Of a stretch of DNA of 21,718 nt, positions 7,391 to 18,819 are shown one piece after another. The stretch's first letter is position 1; every line of letters starts with the position of its first letter. Both the position numbers and the translations under genes were made by a program. The stretch lies in the IMG/VR virus record IMGVR_UViG_3300023179_000572, positions 1 through 21,718 of that record; one strand, written 5' to 3'. The stretch is from a virus. A model generated the notes under the pieces. The model ran no database searches. It saw only the letters and a list, made by a program, of their open reading frames with translations, and was not told the origin of the DNA.

Positions 7391-8041
7391 ATGAAACTCA
7401 TCACAGAAGAAGTACAACAAGTTAAGTTTATCACCGAAGGAAAAGGTACTAATAAAAAAATGTTTATTGAAGGTATTTTCCTTCAAGGAGACATTTGCAA
7501 TCGTAATGGAAGAATGTATCCTATGTCAACTCTTGCAAAAGAGGTAAACAGATACAATGAAGCATTTGTTTCCAAAGGTCGTGCTCTTGGAGAACTTGGT
7601 CATCCTGAGGGACCTACTGTTAATCTTGATCGTGTTTCTCATAAAATTGTTTCTCTTACTTGTGAGGGAACTAACTTCAGGGGTAAGGCACAACTTTTAG
7701 AAACTCCAATGGGTAAGATTGCAAAATCTCTTATTGGTGAAGGAGTTTGTCTTGGTGTTTCTTCTCGTGGTGTTGGATCTCTTCAGATGACTAATGAAGG
7801 ACATAAAGTAGTTGGTCCCGATTTTATGTTAGCAACTGCTGCTGATATTGTTGCAGATCCTTCTGCTCCCGATGCCTTTATTTCTGGAATTATGGAAGGT
7901 AAGGAATGGGTTTGGGAAGGTGGAATTCTTCGTGAAAAACTTGCCAAACAAACTAAGCGCAGAATTAATACTTTAGTAGATGAAAGAACACTTCAGGAAC
8001 ATAAGGTTGAATTGTTTCAGGAATTTCTTTCAAATCTTTGA
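7391..8041 (+). CDS. gp21: Prohead core protease gp21
   Basis: Serine protease of the prohead core that cuts the scaffold, gp23 and packaged internal proteins before DNA filling. In T4 it cuts after Glu in (L/I)-x-E|(A/G). It has 216 residues (T4 212). The catalytic His lies in GELGHPE (H71) and the Ser in LGVSSRGVGS (S124/S125), the herpesvirus-assemblin-like arrangement of this family. FIEGIFLQGDICNRNGRMYP near the N-terminus is also typical. The ATG follows the previous stop by one base. Candidate substrates with matching sites in this window are gp22, gp23 and the products at 10951 and 18106. Confidence 0.95.
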   Translation: MKLITEEVQQVKFITEGKGTNKKMFIEGIFLQGDICNRNGRMYPMSTLAKEVNRYNEAFVSKGRALGELGHPEGPTVNLDRVSHKIVSLTCEGTNFRGKAQLLETPMGKIAKSLIGEGVCLGVSSRGVGSLQMTNEGHKVVGPDFMLATAADIVADPSAPDAFISGIMEGKEWVWEGGILREKLAKQTKRRINTLVDERTLQEHKVELFQEFLSNL

Positions 8042-8079: not shown

Positions 8080-9432
8080 ATGTCCGTTGGTAGAAATTTA
8101 CAAGAAATGGAAAACGTAGTAACCAAAGGAGCTGCAGCTGCCGAACCAATGCACAACTTGTCTACAGGAATTGCTCCTGGGCAAACTGGAACTTGGGAAG
8201 ATCTGGGCGGTCCTACTGTAGACAACTATCGTCCAGATGACGATTCAGCAAAACTAAACACTCCTGCAGTAACTTTAGCACAAGTTAAAAATGTTGTTAA
8301 TGCTAAGGCAGCAGCAGCAGAACCTCCATCTAATACTTCTATGCGTAAAGAAGACTCCGATTATGATGAAGATGAGGAACTTCTAGAAGCATCTAAGAAA
8401 GAGGGGGATGATGAAGAGGACGAAGCAGGTAAAAAGAAATCTAACAAAAGAGTAATGAAAGCGTCATACATGAAGAAAGATTCTAAAGAGGACGAAGAGG
8501 ACGAAGAGGACGAAGAGGACGAAGAGGACGAAGAGGACGAAGAGGATGAAGAGGATGAAGAGGACGAAGCAGGTAAAAAGAAATCTAAGAAAAGAAGAAT
8601 GAAAGCATCATACATGAAAAAAGGTTCTAAAGATGATGACGACGATGATGACGATGATGATGAAGAAGATGAATCTGGTTATGGTAAAAAAATGGAAGAA
8701 GAGTTTAACATTGAAGAAGATGTTAATGCTCTTCTAGCAGGTGAAGAACTATCTGAAGAGTTTCAAGAAAAGGCACGTACAATCTTTGAAGCTGCTATTC
8801 GTTCAAAGGTTGAACAAATCAAAGAATCTCTTCATTCTTCATATGAAGAAGCACTTATAGAGGAGATTGAATTAATCAAGGAAGACTTGGTTGATAGAGT
8901 CGATACTTATCTTGAGTATGTTGCTGATGAGTGGTTCTCTGAGAATGTACTCGCAGTTGAGCACGGTCTTAAGACCGAAATGACCGAGAGCTTCCTCTCG
9001 GGCATGAAGCAACTTTTTGAAGATCATTATGTAACTGTTCCTGAAGATAGATATGATGTAATCGAAAGCATGGTAGATAAACTTGATGAAATGGAAGAAA
9101 AACTCAACGAGCAAATTTCAAGAAATGTTGCTCTTAATAGAAGATTAGCCGAGTCGGTTGCTGATGTAATCTTTGCAGATGTCGCTGAGGGTCTTGCACT
9201 TTCTCAGAAGGACAAACTCGCTTCTCTTGCCGAAAATGTTGAGTTTGATGGTGAAGCAGAATATCGTGAGAAACTAGTAATGTTGAGAAATTCTTATTTC
9301 CCAATCAGTGCTAGTACTCCAAGAGATAACTCTGAAAACTTGTCTGAAAGCACAGATGTTCAAAATCAACCACAAGTTGGCAGCATCATGGAAGCTTATC
9401 TTCAGACTCTTAGTAGAGTTGCCAAAAAGTGA
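8080..9432 (+). CDS. gp22: Prohead scaffold (major core) protein gp22 with acidic repeat insertion
   Basis: Main internal scaffold on which gp23 assembles; gp21 later digests it. It has 450 residues against 269 in T4. The C-terminal half (about 205-450) is the charged, helical scaffold core. The extra length is an N-terminal region with two VxxKAAAAEP-like motifs (about 15-23 and 74-82) and a very acidic section (about 92-200). That section has two copies of a 25-residue EDEAGKKKSxKRxMKASYMKK-type unit, nine EDE triplets between them and a ten-Asp run after. Sites fitting (L/I)xE|A occur at LLE103|A, IFE237|A and IME438|A. The gene sits between gp21 and gp23 as in T4. Confidence 0.93.
   Translation: MSVGRNLQEMENVVTKGAAAAEPMHNLSTGIAPGQTGTWEDLGGPTVDNYRPDDDSAKLNTPAVTLAQVKNVVNAKAAAAEPPSNTSMRKEDSDYDEDEELLEASKKEGDDEEDEAGKKKSNKRVMKASYMKKDSKEDEEDEEDEEDEEDEEDEEDEEDEEDEAGKKKSKKRRMKASYMKKGSKDDDDDDDDDDEEDESGYGKKMEEEFNIEEDVNALLAGEELSEEFQEKARTIFEAAIRSKVEQIKESLHSSYEEALIEEIELIKEDLVDRVDTYLEYVADEWFSENVLAVEHGLKTEMTESFLSGMKQLFEDHYVTVPEDRYDVIESMVDKLDEMEEKLNEQISRNVALNRRLAESVADVIFADVAEGLALSQKDKLASLAENVEFDGEAEYREKLVMLRNSYFPISASTPRDNSENLSESTDVQNQPQVGSIMEAYLQTLSRVAKK
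8413..8631 (+). repeat. Duplicated 75-nt unit within gene 22
   Basis: Two in-frame copies, 8413-8487 and 8557-8631, are offset by 144 bases (48 codons). Both encode an EDEAGKKKS-K/R-MKASYMKK-SK unit, with substitutions such as SNKRVM versus SKKRRM and KKDSK versus KKGSK. The nine-fold GAGGAYGAA array separates them. This looks like duplication followed by divergence. Confidence 0.85.
8488..8568 (+). repeat. Nine tandem copies of a 9-bp GAGGAYGAA repeat in gene 22
   Basis: 81 bases made of nine GAG-GAC/T-GAA units, encoding (Glu-Asp-Glu)x9, residues 137-163 of gp22. Seven units have GAC and two have GAT. Because each unit is three codons, gain or loss of units keeps the frame. A GAT/GAC run for ten Asp follows at 8632-8661. 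Confidence 0.95.
8964..9001 (+). other. Two adjacent perfect hairpins inside gene 22
   Basis: CGGTCTTAAGACCG (8964-8977) is a perfect palindrome that can fold as a 5-bp stem with a TTAA loop. Six bases later CCGAGAG (8984-8990) pairs perfectly with CTCTCGG (8995-9001) around CTTC. No T-tract follows. They are more GC-rich than the surroundings. Confidence 0.6.
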
Positions 9433-9485: not shown

Positions 9486-10883
9486 ATGCAAATGTTCAAT
9501 GCGGAATATTTGCAGGAGAAGTGGGCACCAATCCTTGACTATGAGGGTCTTGATTCAATCAAAGATTCACATCGTAGAGCGGTAACTGCTATCCTGCTAG
9601 AAAACCAAGAGAAAGAACTACGTGAAGAGAGTTCTTTCCTCTCAGAAGCTCCAACTGTAAATACTTTTTCAAGCACAGGAACTGCAGGTTTCTCTGCTGG
9701 TGCTTCTTCACCAGTTGCTGGTTTCGATCCTGTTCTAATCAGCCTTATCCGTCGTGCAATGCCTAACTTGGTCGCTTATGACCTTGCTGGTGTTCAACCA
9801 ATGAACGGACCTACTGGTCTTATCTTTGCGATGCGTTCTAAGTATAAGACCATGAATGGAACTGAAGCTCTGTTCAACGAAGCTGATACTGCATTCTCAG
9901 GTCAGAGTAGCGCACAAAACCTCACCAGTGGATTCACTAGCGGTTCTGTTGGTCTTGGTACAACTACTCAGCGTGGTACTAACCCAGGTCTTCTGAACCC
10001 AGAATCGGGACAAACCGCAACGACCTACAACGTAGGCGAAGGTATGCGTACCGATGACGCAGAAAATCTAGGTGGCGGTGCTGGTGCTGGTGACCAGTTT
10101 AACGAAATGGCATTCTCAATTGAGAAAGTCACCGTTACTGCTAAGTCAAGAGCACTCAAAGCAGAATACACTCTAGAACTCGCACAAGACCTAAAAGCAA
10201 TCCATGGTTTGAATGCTGAGGCTGAACTCGCAAACATTCTCTCAACTGAGATTCTTGCTGAAATCAATCGTGAAGTTATCCGTACCATCTATAATGTTGC
10301 TGAGTCTGGTGCTCAGGCAAACACTGCTTCTGCAGGTATCTTCGATCTAGACGTCGACTCCAACGGTCGTTGGTCGGTTGAGAAGTTCAAGGGTCTTATT
10401 TTCCAAATCGAGCGCGATGCTAACGCAATCGCACAAAGAACTCGTAGAGGGAAGGGTAACATGATCCTCTGCTCTGCTGACGTTGCTTCGGCACTCACCA
10501 TGGCAGGTGTTCTTGATTACACCCCTGCACTCAACGCTAACCTCAACGTTGATGATACTGGCAACACTTTTGCTGGTGTTCTGCAAGGTAAGTATCGTGT
10601 TTATATCGATCCTTATTCGGCAAACGTTTCTGCTAACCAATACTATGTTGTTGGTTATAAGGGTTCTTCACCATATGATGCAGGTTTATTCTACTGCCCA
10701 TACGTTCCTCTCCAAATGGTTCGTGCTGTTGGTCAGGACACCTTCCAGCCTAAGATCGGCTTCAAGACCAGATATGGTCTTGTTGCTAACCCATTCGCTG
10801 AAGGAACTACCGTTGGTGCAGGTCGCCTCCAGATGAACTCCAACCGTTACTACAGAAGAGTACGTGTTGACAACCTAATGTGA
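9486..10883 (+). CDS. gp23: Major capsid protein gp23
   Basis: HK97-fold hexamer subunit of the head. It has 465 residues (T4 521). The match to T4 gp23 is clear: an N-terminal helix region ending FLSE|A (cleavage after E54; T4 has FLTE|A at 65), then RRAMPNLVAYDLAGVQPM, ALKAEYTLELAQDLKAIHG, ILAEINREVIR, FAGVLQGKYRVYIDPY and the C-terminal IGFKTRYGLVANPFAE. The length difference lies mainly in the middle. The ribosome leader GAGGTAAAACAAATG (9474-9488) resembles that of gene 19. The gene uses more C-ending codons (AAC, CTC, ATC, GAC) than its neighbours, as expected for a very highly expressed protein. A strong terminator follows. Confidence 0.98.
   Translation: MQMFNAEYLQEKWAPILDYEGLDSIKDSHRRAVTAILLENQEKELREESSFLSEAPTVNTFSSTGTAGFSAGASSPVAGFDPVLISLIRRAMPNLVAYDLAGVQPMNGPTGLIFAMRSKYKTMNGTEALFNEADTAFSGQSSAQNLTSGFTSGSVGLGTTTQRGTNPGLLNPESGQTATTYNVGEGMRTDDAENLGGGAGAGDQFNEMAFSIEKVTVTAKSRALKAEYTLELAQDLKAIHGLNAEAELANILSTEILAEINREVIRTIYNVAESGAQANTASAGIFDLDVDSNGRWSVEKFKGLIFQIERDANAIAQRTRRGKGNMILCSADVASALTMAGVLDYTPALNANLNVDDTGNTFAGVLQGKYRVYIDPYSANVSANQYYVVGYKGSSPYDAGLFYCPYVPLQMVRAVGQDTFQPKIGFKTRYGLVANPFAEGTTVGAGRLQMNSNRYYRRVRVDNLM
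9611..9638 (+). other. Inverted repeat near the 5' end of gene 23
   Basis: GAAAGAACT (9611-9619) pairs perfectly with AGTTCTTTC (9630-9638) around a 10-base loop, and can extend by AGAG/CTCT pairs with one bulge. It lies in codons 42-51, just before the codons for the FLSE|A processing site. Role unknown. Confidence 0.45.
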
Positions 10884-10950: not shown

Positions 10951-11346
10951 ATGAAAAGTTTTAAGGAGTTTATATCTGAGGCAATTCCTTTTGCTGTTGT
11001 TGGACAAGTAAGTTCTTATGGTCCAGGATTATATGGAAATAAAACCGCTAGTGGATCAGTATTAACTCCTCAGAGTAGAGGAATTGCCAGTAAAACTTTA
11101 CCACTTGGTAGCGATGTTAAAATAACTGATCCAAAAACTGGAAAAAGTGTTACAACCAAAGTAATTGATAGAGGTCCATATGTAGGAGATCGTCAGGCCG
11201 ATTTAACTACACAGACAACCAAAGATCTTGGATATAAAGATTATAAACAGTTTGGTGTTAAAGATATGGATGTAAGTCTTTTAGCAAAAACCAAACCTTC
11301 ATTTCCAACAACACAAAGTAAAGGTTTAATGTACGGAAAGTATTGA
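10951..11346 (+). CDS. RlpA-like double-psi beta-barrel protein with a capsid-targeting N-terminus
   Basis: 131 residues. Residues about 17-95 match the RlpA-type double-psi beta-barrel: VGQVSSYGPGLYGN, KTASGS, ASKTLPLG, VKITDPKTGKSV, then VIDRGPY (Asp 73) and ADLT. Bacterial RlpA proteins bind or cut peptidoglycan. Two residues usual in active RlpA enzymes look replaced: Glu after TASG is Ser36 and His before (K/R)TLP is Ser47. There is no signal peptide or lipobox. Instead the N-terminus MKSFKEFISE|A closely resembles the 10-residue capsid-targeting sequence of T4 internal proteins (MKTYQEFIAE|A) and fits the gp21 site. I infer a head-packaged protein. It lies between gene 23 and the gp3-like gene. 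Confidence 0.82.
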   Translation: MKSFKEFISEAIPFAVVGQVSSYGPGLYGNKTASGSVLTPQSRGIASKTLPLGSDVKITDPKTGKSVTTKVIDRGPYVGDRQADLTTQTTKDLGYKDYKQFGVKDMDVSLLAKTKPSFPTTQSKGLMYGKY

Positions 11347-15905: not shown

Positions 15906-16180
15906 TGTATCTTCTTACTCTTAAAGATCAAAAAGAAGATGGTGCTTATGCCGTTCAAAATCGATACGGTGAGAAAGTTCTTTTTCTTTTTGAGGAGGAA
16001 GATGATGCGGTTAGATATGCCTTAATGCTTAAGGATCAAGAAGAATCAGAAATGGATGTAGTAGAAGTTGATGATGCACTTGCCATAATGACTTGTAAGA
16101 GGTATAATTACAAGTATGCTGTGGTAACTCCCAACGATATCGTGATACCCCCTAAGAATGCTAGTATTTCACAAGATTAA
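15905..16180 (+). CDS. DUF3110-like protein between genes 47 and 46
   Basis: 91 residues from the ATG at 15905, which overlaps the gp47 stop (TAATG); an in-frame TTG at 15890 inside gp47 is less likely. MYLLTLKDQ, GAYAVQNRYGEKVLFLFEEEDDAVRYALMLKDQE, VVEVDDALAIMTC and the C-terminal VVTPNDIVIPPKN follow the pattern of DUF3110, a small family I know mainly from cyanobacteria and plastids. The function of that family is unknown. The gene also overlaps gp46 by 23 bases. Its place between two subunits of one complex suggests co-regulation, perhaps a physical partner, but that is inference. It may derive from a host gene. Confidence 0.78.
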   Translation: MYLLTLKDQKEDGAYAVQNRYGEKVLFLFEEEDDAVRYALMLKDQEESEMDVVEVDDALAIMTCKRYNYKYAVVTPNDIVIPPKNASISQD

Positions 16181-17873
16181 ATGGAAAAACTTCCTCTCCA
16201 CAGGAAATCAATGGACGGAAGTTGATTTTGAAAAACATTGTATTAATTTGATTATTGGAACAAACGGCGCTGGTAAATCGACAATTCTGGATGCACTTAC
16301 GTTTGTTCTTTTTAATAAACCTTTTCGTAAGATTAATAAATCTCAACTAGTCAATACAACGAACGAAAAGGACTGTGTTGTTGAGATTGAGTTCTCTATC
16401 AATAGTAGAGATTATTTGGTTCGTCGCGGAATCAAACCAAATATTTTTGATATTGAAGTAAATGGATCTCCCCTTCATAAGGAAGCAGATGATCGAGCAA
16501 ATCAAAGAATCTTAGAAGATAATATTTTAAAAGTTAACTATAAATCTTTTACTCAAATTGTGATTTTGGGTTCAAGTACTTTTGTTCCCTTTATGCAACT
16601 TACGACTGCAAATCGTCGTGAAGTGATCGAAGATCTCTTGGATATTCGCATTTTTTCTGCAATGAATAATCTGATTAAAGATAAGATTCGTGAGAAAAAA
16701 GATCAAATTAAATCTCTTGATCTTAAGAAAAATAATCTTAAGGACAAAATAAAAATGCAGCAAGAGTTTATTGAAGAACTTGAAAATCGTGGTAATGCCA
16801 ATATAAATGCAAATAAAGAAAAGATTGCCAATTTAGATAAAGAAGTTGGTATTTATATGGTGGAAAATGCCATGACAGAAGAGCAGATTTTTACTTTTAC
16901 TAAAGAGCAAGAGGAAGTGATTGGTGCTGATGATAAGTTAGTAAAACTCAACAATCTTAAAGGTAAAATTTCTCAGAAAGTATTAGTCATTACGAAAGAG
17001 CATAAGTTTTTTACTGAGAATACGGTCTGCCCCACTTGTACTCAGACTATTGAGGAAGAGTTTCGGTTAAATAGAATTACAGACGCTCAAAATAAAGCAA
17101 AGGAACTCCAGAAAGGTTTTCAAGAACTTGAGGAGACTATCAAGTTAGAACAGGAACGAGAGCGTCAATTCACAGTTCTATCTAAGGAGATTACGAAACT
17201 CAATCATGAGATTTCTCAAAACAATACTCGGATTTCCCTCAACCAGAGACAAATACGAGACCTTGAATCTGAAATTCAAACTATTACCCAAAACCTTGCA
17301 AACAGAAATACTGAGCATGAGAAGTTAGAAGAATTTCAAACCAATCTCCAAAAAACATTCGAAGACCTTTCAAAGAAAAAAGAAGAAATAGTTTATTACG
17401 ATTTTGCCTATTCCTTACTCAAGGACGATGGCGTTAAAACGAAGATCATTAAGAAATATCTTCCGTTCATAAATCAACAGGTAAATCGTTATCTTCAAAT
17501 GATGGATTTTTATATTAATTTTCATCTCGATGAAGAGTTTAATGAAACGGTAAAATCACCCATTCACGAAGATTTCTCATACTCCTCTTTTTCTGAAGGA
17601 GAAAAGGCAAGAATTGATTTGAGTTTGTTGTTTGCTTGGCGCGAAATTGCAAGAGTCAAAAATTCAGTAAATTGTAATATTCTTTTATTTGATGAAGTTT
17701 TTGACTCTTCTCTTGATGGTTTTGGTGCGGATGAATTTTTAAAAATTATTAGATATGTTGTTAAGGATACTAATGTTTTTGTAATTTCTCACAAAACAGA
17801 TCTTCAGGATAAGTTTGATTCTACAATTAAATTTGAAAAGAAAAATGGGTTTTCATATAAGACAGAATTATAG
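16158..17873 (+). CDS. gp46: Recombination nuclease ATPase subunit gp46 (Rad50/SbcC-like)
   Basis: SMC-like ATPase that forms the end-processing complex with gp47. It has 571 residues (T4 560). Walker A GTNGAGKS (34-41) and FTQIVILGSSTFVPFMQLTTANRREVIEDLL lie in the N-terminal lobe. Coiled coils run about 165-285 and 300-410 on either side of a zinc hook CPTC (291-294). The C-terminal lobe has LKDDGVKTKIIKKYLPFINQQVN, the signature SFSEGEKAR (477-485), Walker B LLFDEVFD (509-516) and the switch-His region VISHK. The ATG at 16158 lies inside the DUF3110-like gene; an ATG in the same frame with KIKWKNFLSTG following is typical. Confidence 0.97.
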   Translation: MLVFHKIKWKNFLSTGNQWTEVDFEKHCINLIIGTNGAGKSTILDALTFVLFNKPFRKINKSQLVNTTNEKDCVVEIEFSINSRDYLVRRGIKPNIFDIEVNGSPLHKEADDRANQRILEDNILKVNYKSFTQIVILGSSTFVPFMQLTTANRREVIEDLLDIRIFSAMNNLIKDKIREKKDQIKSLDLKKNNLKDKIKMQQEFIEELENRGNANINANKEKIANLDKEVGIYMVENAMTEEQIFTFTKEQEEVIGADDKLVKLNNLKGKISQKVLVITKEHKFFTENTVCPTCTQTIEEEFRLNRITDAQNKAKELQKGFQELEETIKLEQERERQFTVLSKEITKLNHEISQNNTRISLNQRQIRDLESEIQTITQNLANRNTEHEKLEEFQTNLQKTFEDLSKKKEEIVYYDFAYSLLKDDGVKTKIIKKYLPFINQQVNRYLQMMDFYINFHLDEEFNETVKSPIHEDFSYSSFSEGEKARIDLSLLFAWREIARVKNSVNCNILLFDEVFDSSLDGFGADEFLKIIRYVVKDTNVFVISHKTDLQDKFDSTIKFEKKNGFSYKTEL

Positions 17874-17945: not shown

Positions 17946-18083
17946 ATGAACACCCCAAACTGGCAACACCACTCTAAAAAGGAGCAGAAGCGGAAACTCA
18001 AACCACAAGCACTCCGACAAGCAAAGGCACGTCGCCAAGCACTCAAGAAGCGTCTCCAAACGGGGACGCTTCTTATTTTATAA
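17946..18083 (+). CDS. Small very basic protein, possibly real
   Basis: 45 codons starting ATG, giving MNTPNWQHHSKKEQKRKLKP, then QALRQAKARRQALKKRLQ and a hydrophobic end TLLIL. Almost half the residues are Lys, Arg or Gln, with QAxxxAKARRQA helix periodicity, as in small nucleic-acid-binding peptides. I see no clear ribosome site. The last 13 codons coincide with a strong terminator hairpin (18045-18074) and the stop lies in a late promoter octamer, so the base composition at the end is explained by these signals. The ordered, codon-like composition before that favours a real gene. The alternative is a non-coding 3' region of gene 46. Confidence 0.45.
   Translation: MNTPNWQHHSKKEQKRKLKPQALRQAKARRQALKKRLQTGTLLIL
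18045..18080 (+). terminator. Terminator hairpin at the end of the small basic ORF
   Basis: AAGAAGCGTCTCC (18045-18057) pairs with GGGGACGCTTCTT (18062-18074) around AAAC: a 13-bp stem with one T-G wobble, then ATTTTA. It is one of the longest stems in the window. The T-run is short but the stem is strong. It ends transcription just before the late promoter at 18079. Confidence 0.82.
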
Positions 18084-18086
18084 ATA
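18079..18086 (+). promoter_or_regulatory. Consensus T4 late promoter before the 18106 gene
   Basis: Exact TATAAATA, overlapping the stop of the small basic ORF (TAA 18081-18083), directly after the terminator and 20 bases before the next ATG. It marks the following gene as late, as expected for a virion protein. Confidence 0.82.
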
Positions 18087-18105: not shown

Positions 18106-18768
18106 ATGAGAGATCAAGAAATTATCGGACTTTGGGAAGCTTACCAACAAGTTCATTCTCAAGTAGAAGAAGTAGAACAACTTGATGAAGATGATGCATA
18201 CGATAGAAATCGTAGAAGAGCAGCACAAAGGGCACAAGCAAGAAACGAAGCAAGAGCAAGGGGACAAACTGGTTCTGTTCCTGGCGTAGGTTATGTATCT
18301 CCTAGACCAGAAAGAGCAACTTATACTGATTCTGCTGGTGTTGTAAGACATCATACTGGTGCTAGAATGCCTAAAAAAGAAGATCAAACAGAATCATACG
18401 ATTTCTTTAACTATCTCCTAGAATACCTAGTTGCCGAAGGTTATGCTAATACCAACAAGGCAGCTCTTGCTATTATGGCAAATATGAGTGAAGAGTGGAA
18501 GCAGAGTATTGTTGAGGGTATGTTTGATTTTCTTCCAAAATCAAACATTAGTTCTCCTGGAATGTATGGAAAAAACACCGTTCTCTCTATGAAAAAGGGT
18601 GTTGAGGGAGTATCCGACAAAACTAAACCTGGCACATTTACTAAACAACCAGGTGGTTGGGATACAACAGATGCTAATAGATATAGTGATGAAAAAATCA
18701 AGCAAGGTGCTGAATCTGGTGGTGTAAATCTCGCTAATCGCAGAACAAACCCAAACAGAATACAATAA
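18106..18768 (+). CDS. Putative internal head protein with capsid-targeting-like N-terminus
   Basis: 220 residues, under an exact late promoter. The N-terminus MRDQEIIGLWE|A ends in a site fitting the gp21 rule (L-W-E|A, after E11), as in T4 capsid-targeting sequences. Then come an acidic stretch (EEVEQLDEDD), a basic Arg/Ala-rich stretch (about 33-52, RNRRRAAQRAQARNEARAR), and a module at 99-137 containing FNYLLEYLVAEGYANT and AIMANMSEEWKQSIVE, which ends in a second possible site (I-V-E|G). From memory, similar 'EGYA-T...AxxIMANMSEEW' modules recur in hypothetical proteins of T4-like cyanophages, but I cannot check this. The C-terminal 75 residues are polar and likely disordered. I infer a packaged DNA-binding protein. 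No homologue with known function. Confidence 0.8.
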   Translation: MRDQEIIGLWEAYQQVHSQVEEVEQLDEDDAYDRNRRRAAQRAQARNEARARGQTGSVPGVGYVSPRPERATYTDSAGVVRHHTGARMPKKEDQTESYDFFNYLLEYLVAEGYANTNKAALAIMANMSEEWKQSIVEGMFDFLPKSNISSPGMYGKNTVLSMKKGVEGVSDKTKPGTFTKQPGGWDTTDANRYSDEKIKQGAESGGVNLANRRTNPNRIQ

Positions 18769-18793: not shown

Positions 18794-18819
18794 AGAGGGT
18801 TTCATCACCCTCTTTTTTT
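18794..18819 (+). terminator. Rho-independent terminator after the 18106 gene
   Basis: AGAGGGT (18794-18800), TTCATC loop, ACCCTCT (18807-18813), then a run of T to 18819. A perfect 7-bp stem. Confidence 0.88.

Follow-up and report, generated by a model that had tools for sequence, protein, structure and literature searches.

The gene at positions 18106-18768 of the window (the whole 21,718-base stretch analysed here, an IMG/VR virus record whose source is a T4-like cyanophage) encodes a member of a family in which an N-terminal segment with the consensus LxEAYxxVY, cassettes that can be interchanged and are for the most part basic, and an acidic module of three helices, with (L/I)xE at its end, are combined in one chain. 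We consider it reasonably likely, taking all steps of the processing model together, that its product is a late, capsid-targeted, modular precursor cut by the prohead protease gp21. Since a relative with the same layout was detected in purified particles, the proteins of this family are probably packaged within the virus head in a form that can be cleaved.

Genomic setting

The closest named relative found is phage S-SRM01, which covers 68% of the window with a mean identity of 80.8%. The gene is flanked by gp46 (16158-17873) on one side and a peptidase gene on the other, and stands as a single-gene unit in which a hairpin, the sequence TATAAATA, the ORF and a second hairpin follow in that order. 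The features of this unit, and two genes that bear on its processing, are:

18045..18074 (+): intrinsic terminator-like hairpin with a 13-bp stem and a T tract, separating the gene from gp46 and directly preceding the promoter
18079..18086 (+): T4-type late promoter TATAAATA, exact match, 27 nt upstream of the ATG
18106..18768 (+): gene for the proposed modular capsid-targeted precursor of 220 aa, an ATG-started frame, stop included, supported by family scans
18794..18813 (+): intrinsic terminator-like hairpin 3' of the gene, from a hairpin search
7391..8041 (+): homologue of the gp21 prohead protease, which would carry out the processing; assigned from its place between the portal/core genes and gp22, in line with the annotation of S-SKS1 and S-SCSM1
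9486..10883 (+): major capsid protein gp23, with FLSE/A at residue 54 as a same-genome example of the site type (the slash marks the predicted cut)

In S-SRM01 a different module protein occupies the equivalent position, and in B23 a module protein sits two genes after gp46. A hot spot of Synechococcus phages has been placed in the interval between gp46 and gp25 (PMC3037559). A short, very basic ORF of 45 aa (MNTPNWQHHSKKEQKRKLKP...) follows gp46 at 17946-18083 (+), its end overlapping the terminator hairpin and the late promoter.

The gp21 copy of S-SRM01 is annotated as 'primosomal protein' in record MW015081 (L001:8970-9620), where it occupies the expected gp21 slot as judged by position and by comparison with S-SKS1; in the same record the labels 'tail sheath' and 'terminase large subunit' appear to be swapped relative to the gene order elsewhere. 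In the window, the translation of gp22 contains long (ED)n and Dn acidic repeats in mid-protein (about 8361-8615), and its C-terminus, at about 9385-9429, is IMEAYLQTLSRVAKK; most of the 47 distinct gp22 ends compared read M[EAGS][AST]YLxTL. Just after gp23, the ORF at 10951-11346 (+) joins a capsid-targeting-like N-terminus, MKSFKEFISE/A, to a domain of the DPBB/lytic-transglycosylase type (Pfam PF03330, E 8.3e-9), and its product is a candidate packaged peptidoglycan-acting enzyme.

Extent of the family and late promoters

The preliminary description of this gene had pointed to similar modules of the form EGYA-T...IMANMSEEW in other cyanophage hypothetical proteins, and such modules are indeed widespread. 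A protein-based scan of IMG/VR with six patterns, from which 80 loci were retained, found a relative encoded in 525 of the 532 candidate stretches. Because one of these six patterns came from the N-terminus, the scan was repeated with a profile of the module only, which yielded at least 557 relatives among at least 599 candidates; 80 loci were again retained, 79 of them new. Together with loci from named phages and whole records, the first set comprised 157 ORFs, reduced to 83 non-redundant proteins (79 with a closed 5' end). The second set started from 89 ORFs; 18 of these were already represented in the first set, and 56 non-redundant proteins were added, of which 54 had a closed 5' end. Both sets combined hold 139 non-redundant proteins.

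In the searched data, members occur only in T4-like cyanophages and viral contigs, often in several copies. Profile searches of whole records found four module copies each in S-SRM01 and S-CRM01, three each in S-SCSM2R and B23, two each in DSL-LC02 and DSL-LC03, one in S-SCSM1, two to five in each of seven large viral contigs and none in S-SKS1, S-CREM2, ACG-2014d and S-RIM8. A scan of bacterial and archaeal genomes returned a single match of 18 residues among 35 candidate stretches. PHROG 9737 matches residues 18-93 of the protein (E 3.2e-28) and PHROG 3708 residues 94-139 (E 4.2e-6); these two and PHROG 22522 are listed with unknown function, and their entries describe neither the architecture nor the sites. 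The protein had no match in Pfam. In an alignment of 79 proteins, made up of S-SCSM1 ORF89, S-RIM8 gp183 and 77 module proteins from the first set, Pfam matches were confined to one member apiece (best E 0.00098), and we took them as chance. PADLOC gave weak single or double matches only, and a sequence search of the PDB gave none. In the literature searched, mostly outside subscription journals, we recognised no paper that deals with capsid-targeting sequences of cyanophages or with modular precursors cut by gp21.

The late promoter is exact, as had been claimed, and most relatives have it at a similar position. Within the window, TATAAATA occurs three times against 1.7 expected, which is not above chance. 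Upstream of family genes, an exact copy lies within 100 nt in 59/79 members of the first set, always at 26-36 nt, as opposed to 29 of 362 ORFs in a control group, which was assembled mechanically from other ORFs with 150 aa or more and includes non-genes. The second set gave a similar picture, with 32 of 54 genes carrying the motif at 22-34 nt. In S-SCSM1, TATAAATA precedes 3 of the 46 virion genes; the 100 nt upstream of ORF89 contain no exact copy. From the motif and its position we propose that the product of ORF 18106-18768 would be expressed late.

Architecture and charge

The protein can be divided into four segments:

18106..18189 (+): residues 1-28, acidic N-terminal segment LWEAYQQVH...EEVEQLDE, net charge -7, a proposed targeting peptide supported by column conservation
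18190..18387 (+): residues 29-94, Arg-rich basic cassette, net charge +6, PHROG 9737, predicted to form a helix and then short strands
18388..18516 (+): residues 95-137, acidic three-helix module A, net charge -5, from the alignment and an AlphaFold model (mean pLDDT 83.8)
18517..18765 (+): residues 138-220, basic tail and C-terminal cassette, net charge +5, also present in loci L006 and L011

Module A has the sequence FDxILEHLVAEGYADTNEAALAIMANMSEEWRQSIVE, and cassettes may sit before it, after it or on both sides; the N-terminal consensus L-x-E-A-Y-x-x-V-Y is often followed by EEVEQLDE. The alternation of charge is a property of the family. Module A is negative in all 81 copies of the first set (median -8) and all 58 of the second, and the tails that follow it are positive in 77/77 and 50/50, respectively. 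From residue 28 to the first module, the chain was positive in 67 of 75 cases in the first set. The Arg-rich stretch pointed out previously corresponds to residues 29-94, and the contact with DNA for which it was judged suited is conjectural. It had also been suggested that these proteins form a class of injected proteins defined by a cleavable N-terminus and the module. The class is indeed recurrent, and larger and more modular than proposed. However, module A is acidic and looks less like an injected part than like a removable or docking one, and the variable, mostly basic cassettes that flank it are the candidates for cargo.

The full-length model was poor (pLDDT 61) and gave only insignificant matches to PDB folds; in BFVD it matched three uncharacterised cyanophage proteins with E of 0.001 or less. 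For the model of module A alone, the best PDB match was a helical stretch of RNA polymerase beta' (Foldseek E of at least 0.72, Z of at most 6), which we regard as a common arrangement.

Predicted gp21 sites

In T4, gp21 cleaves after L/I-X-E (PMC9026906). The protein begins MRDQEIIGLWE/AYQQVH, and [LI]xE followed by A, G or S occurs in it exactly twice, after E11 and after E137 (QSIVE/GMF), as had been noted. Two further LxE matches are LDE28/D and LLE106/Y, the latter within a helix of module A. The predicted sites are:

18136..18138 (+): Glu11, predicted gp21 site LWE/A, from [LI]xE[AGS] near the N-terminus in relatives
18187..18189 (+): Glu28, predicted gp21 site LDE/D, directly 5' of the cassette, from [LIVF]xE upstream of all 16 distinct cassette copies
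18514..18516 (+): Glu137, predicted gp21 site IVE/G at the module end, from module-end conservation

LxE is a weak motif, matched by 16% of random 12-mers from the same proteins, yet [LI]xE stands at 133 of the 135 module A ends among the 139 non-redundant members. Its position relative to the conserved Trp varies: it lies 6 residues past Trp in 108 members, 7 in 15 and 8 in 2, with L or I shifted into place, so that L/I remains at P3 and E at P1 in the 17 variants with one- or two-residue insertions (15 and 2). Eight module ends without the Trp anchor also keep the motif, and two have VxE instead.

Conservation at the module end is far above that of the N-terminal Glu. Within the first 20 residues, [LI]xE[AGS] occurs in 63/79 proteins of the first set, where shuffled composition predicts 2.9, and in 37/54 of the second (2.24 expected); relatives usually have an N-terminal site as well as the promoter, as the preliminary description had proposed. 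Of the 132 N-termini that were aligned, 107 have E, 109 have A and 122 have Y, with F in 5 more; L or I is found in 121 of 131. The Glu is replaced in about 19% of members and is less conserved than the adjacent Tyr, which is retained in variants such as LMQAY and IMGAY. The idea of a cyanophage family with late promoters, a usual N-terminal LxE/A and a site at the module end stands, but the N-terminal Glu is not its invariant feature. As the Glu is lost while the Tyr stays, the segment of about 28 residues is itself conserved, beyond the cut site alone. For the protein of the window, we predict from these patterns that cutting would be best supported after E137, then after E28 and then after E11. 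There is no LxE between the cassette of residues 29-94 and module A, so residues 29-137 may stay in one piece.

Cassette exchange at the sites

The ends of pairwise homology segments among these proteins fall within one residue of an LxE cut in 51% of cases, versus 5.3% for random positions. Among cassettes in differing upstream contexts, with module A and the N-terminus masked, both copies start at an LxE-type site in 39%, versus 1.8%. When each point was counted once, [LI]xE marked 27.9% of 759 ends (random 5.4%) and 32% of 169 starts (random 8.9%). All the percentages given here come from related sequences and are not independent trials. Comparison of all 20 residues in [LI]xX gave at most 4.1% at ends or starts for every residue other than E. 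The C-side ends of cassettes, with the module masked, mostly lie off LxE (12 of 101 points on it).

The cassette of residues 29-94 illustrates this exchange. Sixteen distinct copies were found across the loci examined, some preceding module A, as in the window, others directly following its end (QDIVE/AMSSYDRN in L193 and SILDE/GDNYDKN in L101), and those of S-RIM8 and ACG-2014d lying inside large multi-cassette proteins without module A. All 16 have LDE, LNE, VDE, IGE, LGE, IVE, FGE or FDE a few residues upstream, in differing contexts. The multi-cassette proteins of ACG-2014d (gp154, L086:1763-3553) and S-RIM8 (gp183, L087:2012-3976) carry the label 'cytidyltransferase' in PHROG 764 and in part of the RefSeq records. 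The Pfam scan of S-RIM8 gp183 found no nucleotidyltransferase family, and the label seems to have been carried over from the adjoining true NMNAT-like gene.

Evidence from virions

For S-SCSM1, virions purified on CsCl were reported to yield 45 proteins by mass spectrometry, and 13 of these are of unknown function (PMC9602691). The genome record labels 47 CDS by our count as virion proteins, and 46 were recovered for our tests. One is ORF89 (86357-87328), with the product label 'virion protein'. It starts MDSKTFNSLSE/AYAAVY, continues with module A and then reads SILDE/ARRADK. Its module is a distant relative (E 3.7e-8, 32 bits) and the sole match in the 228,827-base genome. Over 84 residues, the central cassette of ORF89 shares 65% identity with the cassette that follows module A in L078. 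ORF89 belongs to a run of virion-labelled genes, ORF89-93, and lies two genes before NMNAT, itself virion-labelled and starting MKSFLQFLKE/A. A module found nowhere else or only in non-virion proteins, or homologues lacking the N-terminal site, had been named as contrary outcomes, none of which was found; here the module lies in a protein labelled as a virion component, with LSE/A near its start.

Moreover, the published virion list of S-CREM2 includes gp154 (PMC10665884), whose gene begins MKNFSSFLTE/A, and cytidylyltransferase is also present in S-SM1 virions (PMC3037559). Given ORF89, NMNAT and gp154, N-termini of this kind occur in cyanophage virion proteins, one of them with the full layout. 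These data support the view that ORF89, with the same layout as the product of ORF 18106-18768, is present in virions, although CsCl purification does not establish an internal location. The N-terminal pattern on its own separates poorly in S-SCSM1, where it is found in 2/46 virion ORFs and 4/190 others, and we rejected it as a general predictor of virion proteins.

Proposed mechanism and alternatives

In the processing model, the gene would be transcribed late from its own T4-type promoter, and the N-terminal segment together with module A would hold the precursor in the prohead core. There gp21 would cut at L/I-x-E. Glu137 is the most confident of the predicted cuts, and a cut after Glu28, Glu11 or both is probable; small basic cargo pieces would be left in the head, one made of residues 138-220 and another of residues 29-94 with or without module A. 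The basic cassettes are swapped between proteins and phages at the sites, as the breakpoint statistics show, and with such exchange at LxE, release would be preserved whichever cassette is attached to whichever carrier module. The weakest step comes last: the basic pieces would probably remain associated with the DNA and might act on the host after injection.

The acidic helical module and the several LxE sites also recall the core proteins that are degraded during T4 head assembly (PMC9026906), and members of the family could instead supplement gp22, gp67 and gp68 as assembly-core proteins that gp21 fragments, the pieces mostly leaving the head with no delivery to the host. The C-terminus of gp22, IMEAYLQTL, resembles the N-terminal LMEAYxSVY of the family. 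However, this likeness is not significant, as the N-terminal profile reached gp22 only with E 4.2, at rank 8 among the listed matches from 1096 ORFs, and no core family is named among the PHROG matches. Basic tails that are exchanged so readily do not resemble a conserved part of the core, and ORF89 was reported from mature virions, even if T4 too retains a gp22 fragment. We therefore regard a core role as rather unlikely. Lists from mass spectrometry do not tell head from tail, and with a motif so frequent by chance in these proteins, E-rich linkers between domains could mimic LxE in an unprocessed virion protein located elsewhere, for instance in the neck, tail or baseplate. Against this, the breakpoints are marked by [LI]xE alone and not by [LI]xD or others, the register is kept through insertions, and neither such exchangeability nor up to five copies per contig would be expected of structural proteins, which makes a neck, tail or baseplate protein the least probable of the readings considered.

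It is also conceivable, if unlikely to a degree between these two, that the family consists of late regulatory or host-takeover proteins absent from the virion, with functionless sites and with ORF89 as a co-purified contaminant. The authors of the S-SCSM1 study indeed state that some non-structural proteins were possibly carried over (PMC9602691), and we found no virion data for the phage of the window or its near relatives. Yet ORF89 lies within a run of virion-labelled genes, and the statistics of the sites are hard to account for without gp21.

Processing of a modular precursor by gp21 remains our preferred reading. A bolder extension of it, which we put forward as tentative and rather doubtful, is a combinatorial cargo system in which acidic carriers and exchangeable basic effector cassettes, joined by gp21 sites, would be recombined at these joints, freed in the capsid and injected, forming an arms-race repertoire beyond the single-cargo internal proteins of T4; LxEAYxxVY may then dock where MEAYLQTL of gp22 does. 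If the processing model is right, dozens of cyanophage 'hypothetical proteins' would fall into one definable class, namely cargo that is packaged, freed by a protease and cut at a predictable site; their cassettes would be candidates for early host-takeover or counter-defence factors, and the family would exemplify domain shuffling guided by protease sites. T4-like cyanophages are abundant, yet the literature found says almost nothing about what their heads contain apart from the NMNAT-like enzyme.

Comparison with known systems

The genes of T4 internal head proteins are late genes. Like the present family, IPI, IPII, IPIII and Alt of T4 have a short N-terminal peptide ending in L/I-x-E and basic mature parts, with several such proteins per phage, and IPI acts as an inhibitor of a restriction nuclease (PMC9026906). 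The protein of the window shares the basic mature part, with net charges of +6 (29-94) and +5 (138-220) between predicted ends. The family differs in its longer N-terminal segment of about 28 residues, in the extra acidic helical module with its own site, and in carrying several cassettes per chain that are shuffled between proteins at the sites. Neither the IP nor the Alt family appeared among the Pfam, PHROG or PDB matches; as no homology to the T4 internal proteins was found, we do not file the protein as a member. They are the nearest functional model, and what appears new, judging from sequence, is a modular variant of capsid-targeted internal proteins with no detectable homology to those of T4.

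The cyanophage NMNAT/cytidylyltransferase (core protein, T4-GC190) also has a short N-terminal peptide, ending in FLxE/A, and is reported from virions; it differs in being a single enzyme without module A. In S-RIM8 and ACG-2014d its downstream neighbour is the multi-cassette protein that shares the cassette, here over residues 29-92. The inner-head proteins of phiKZ and SPN3US are likewise processed by the prohead protease, paralogous and variable in number, although they are different proteins of different phages, several of their propeptides are N-terminal and exceed 100 residues, and the available text of that report does not mention cassette shuffling (PMC5694885). In DSL-LC03, a protein starting MKTYTEFISE/C is encoded directly after a module A protein (L127:3653-4426). 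Its start closely resembles the leaders of T4 internal proteins.
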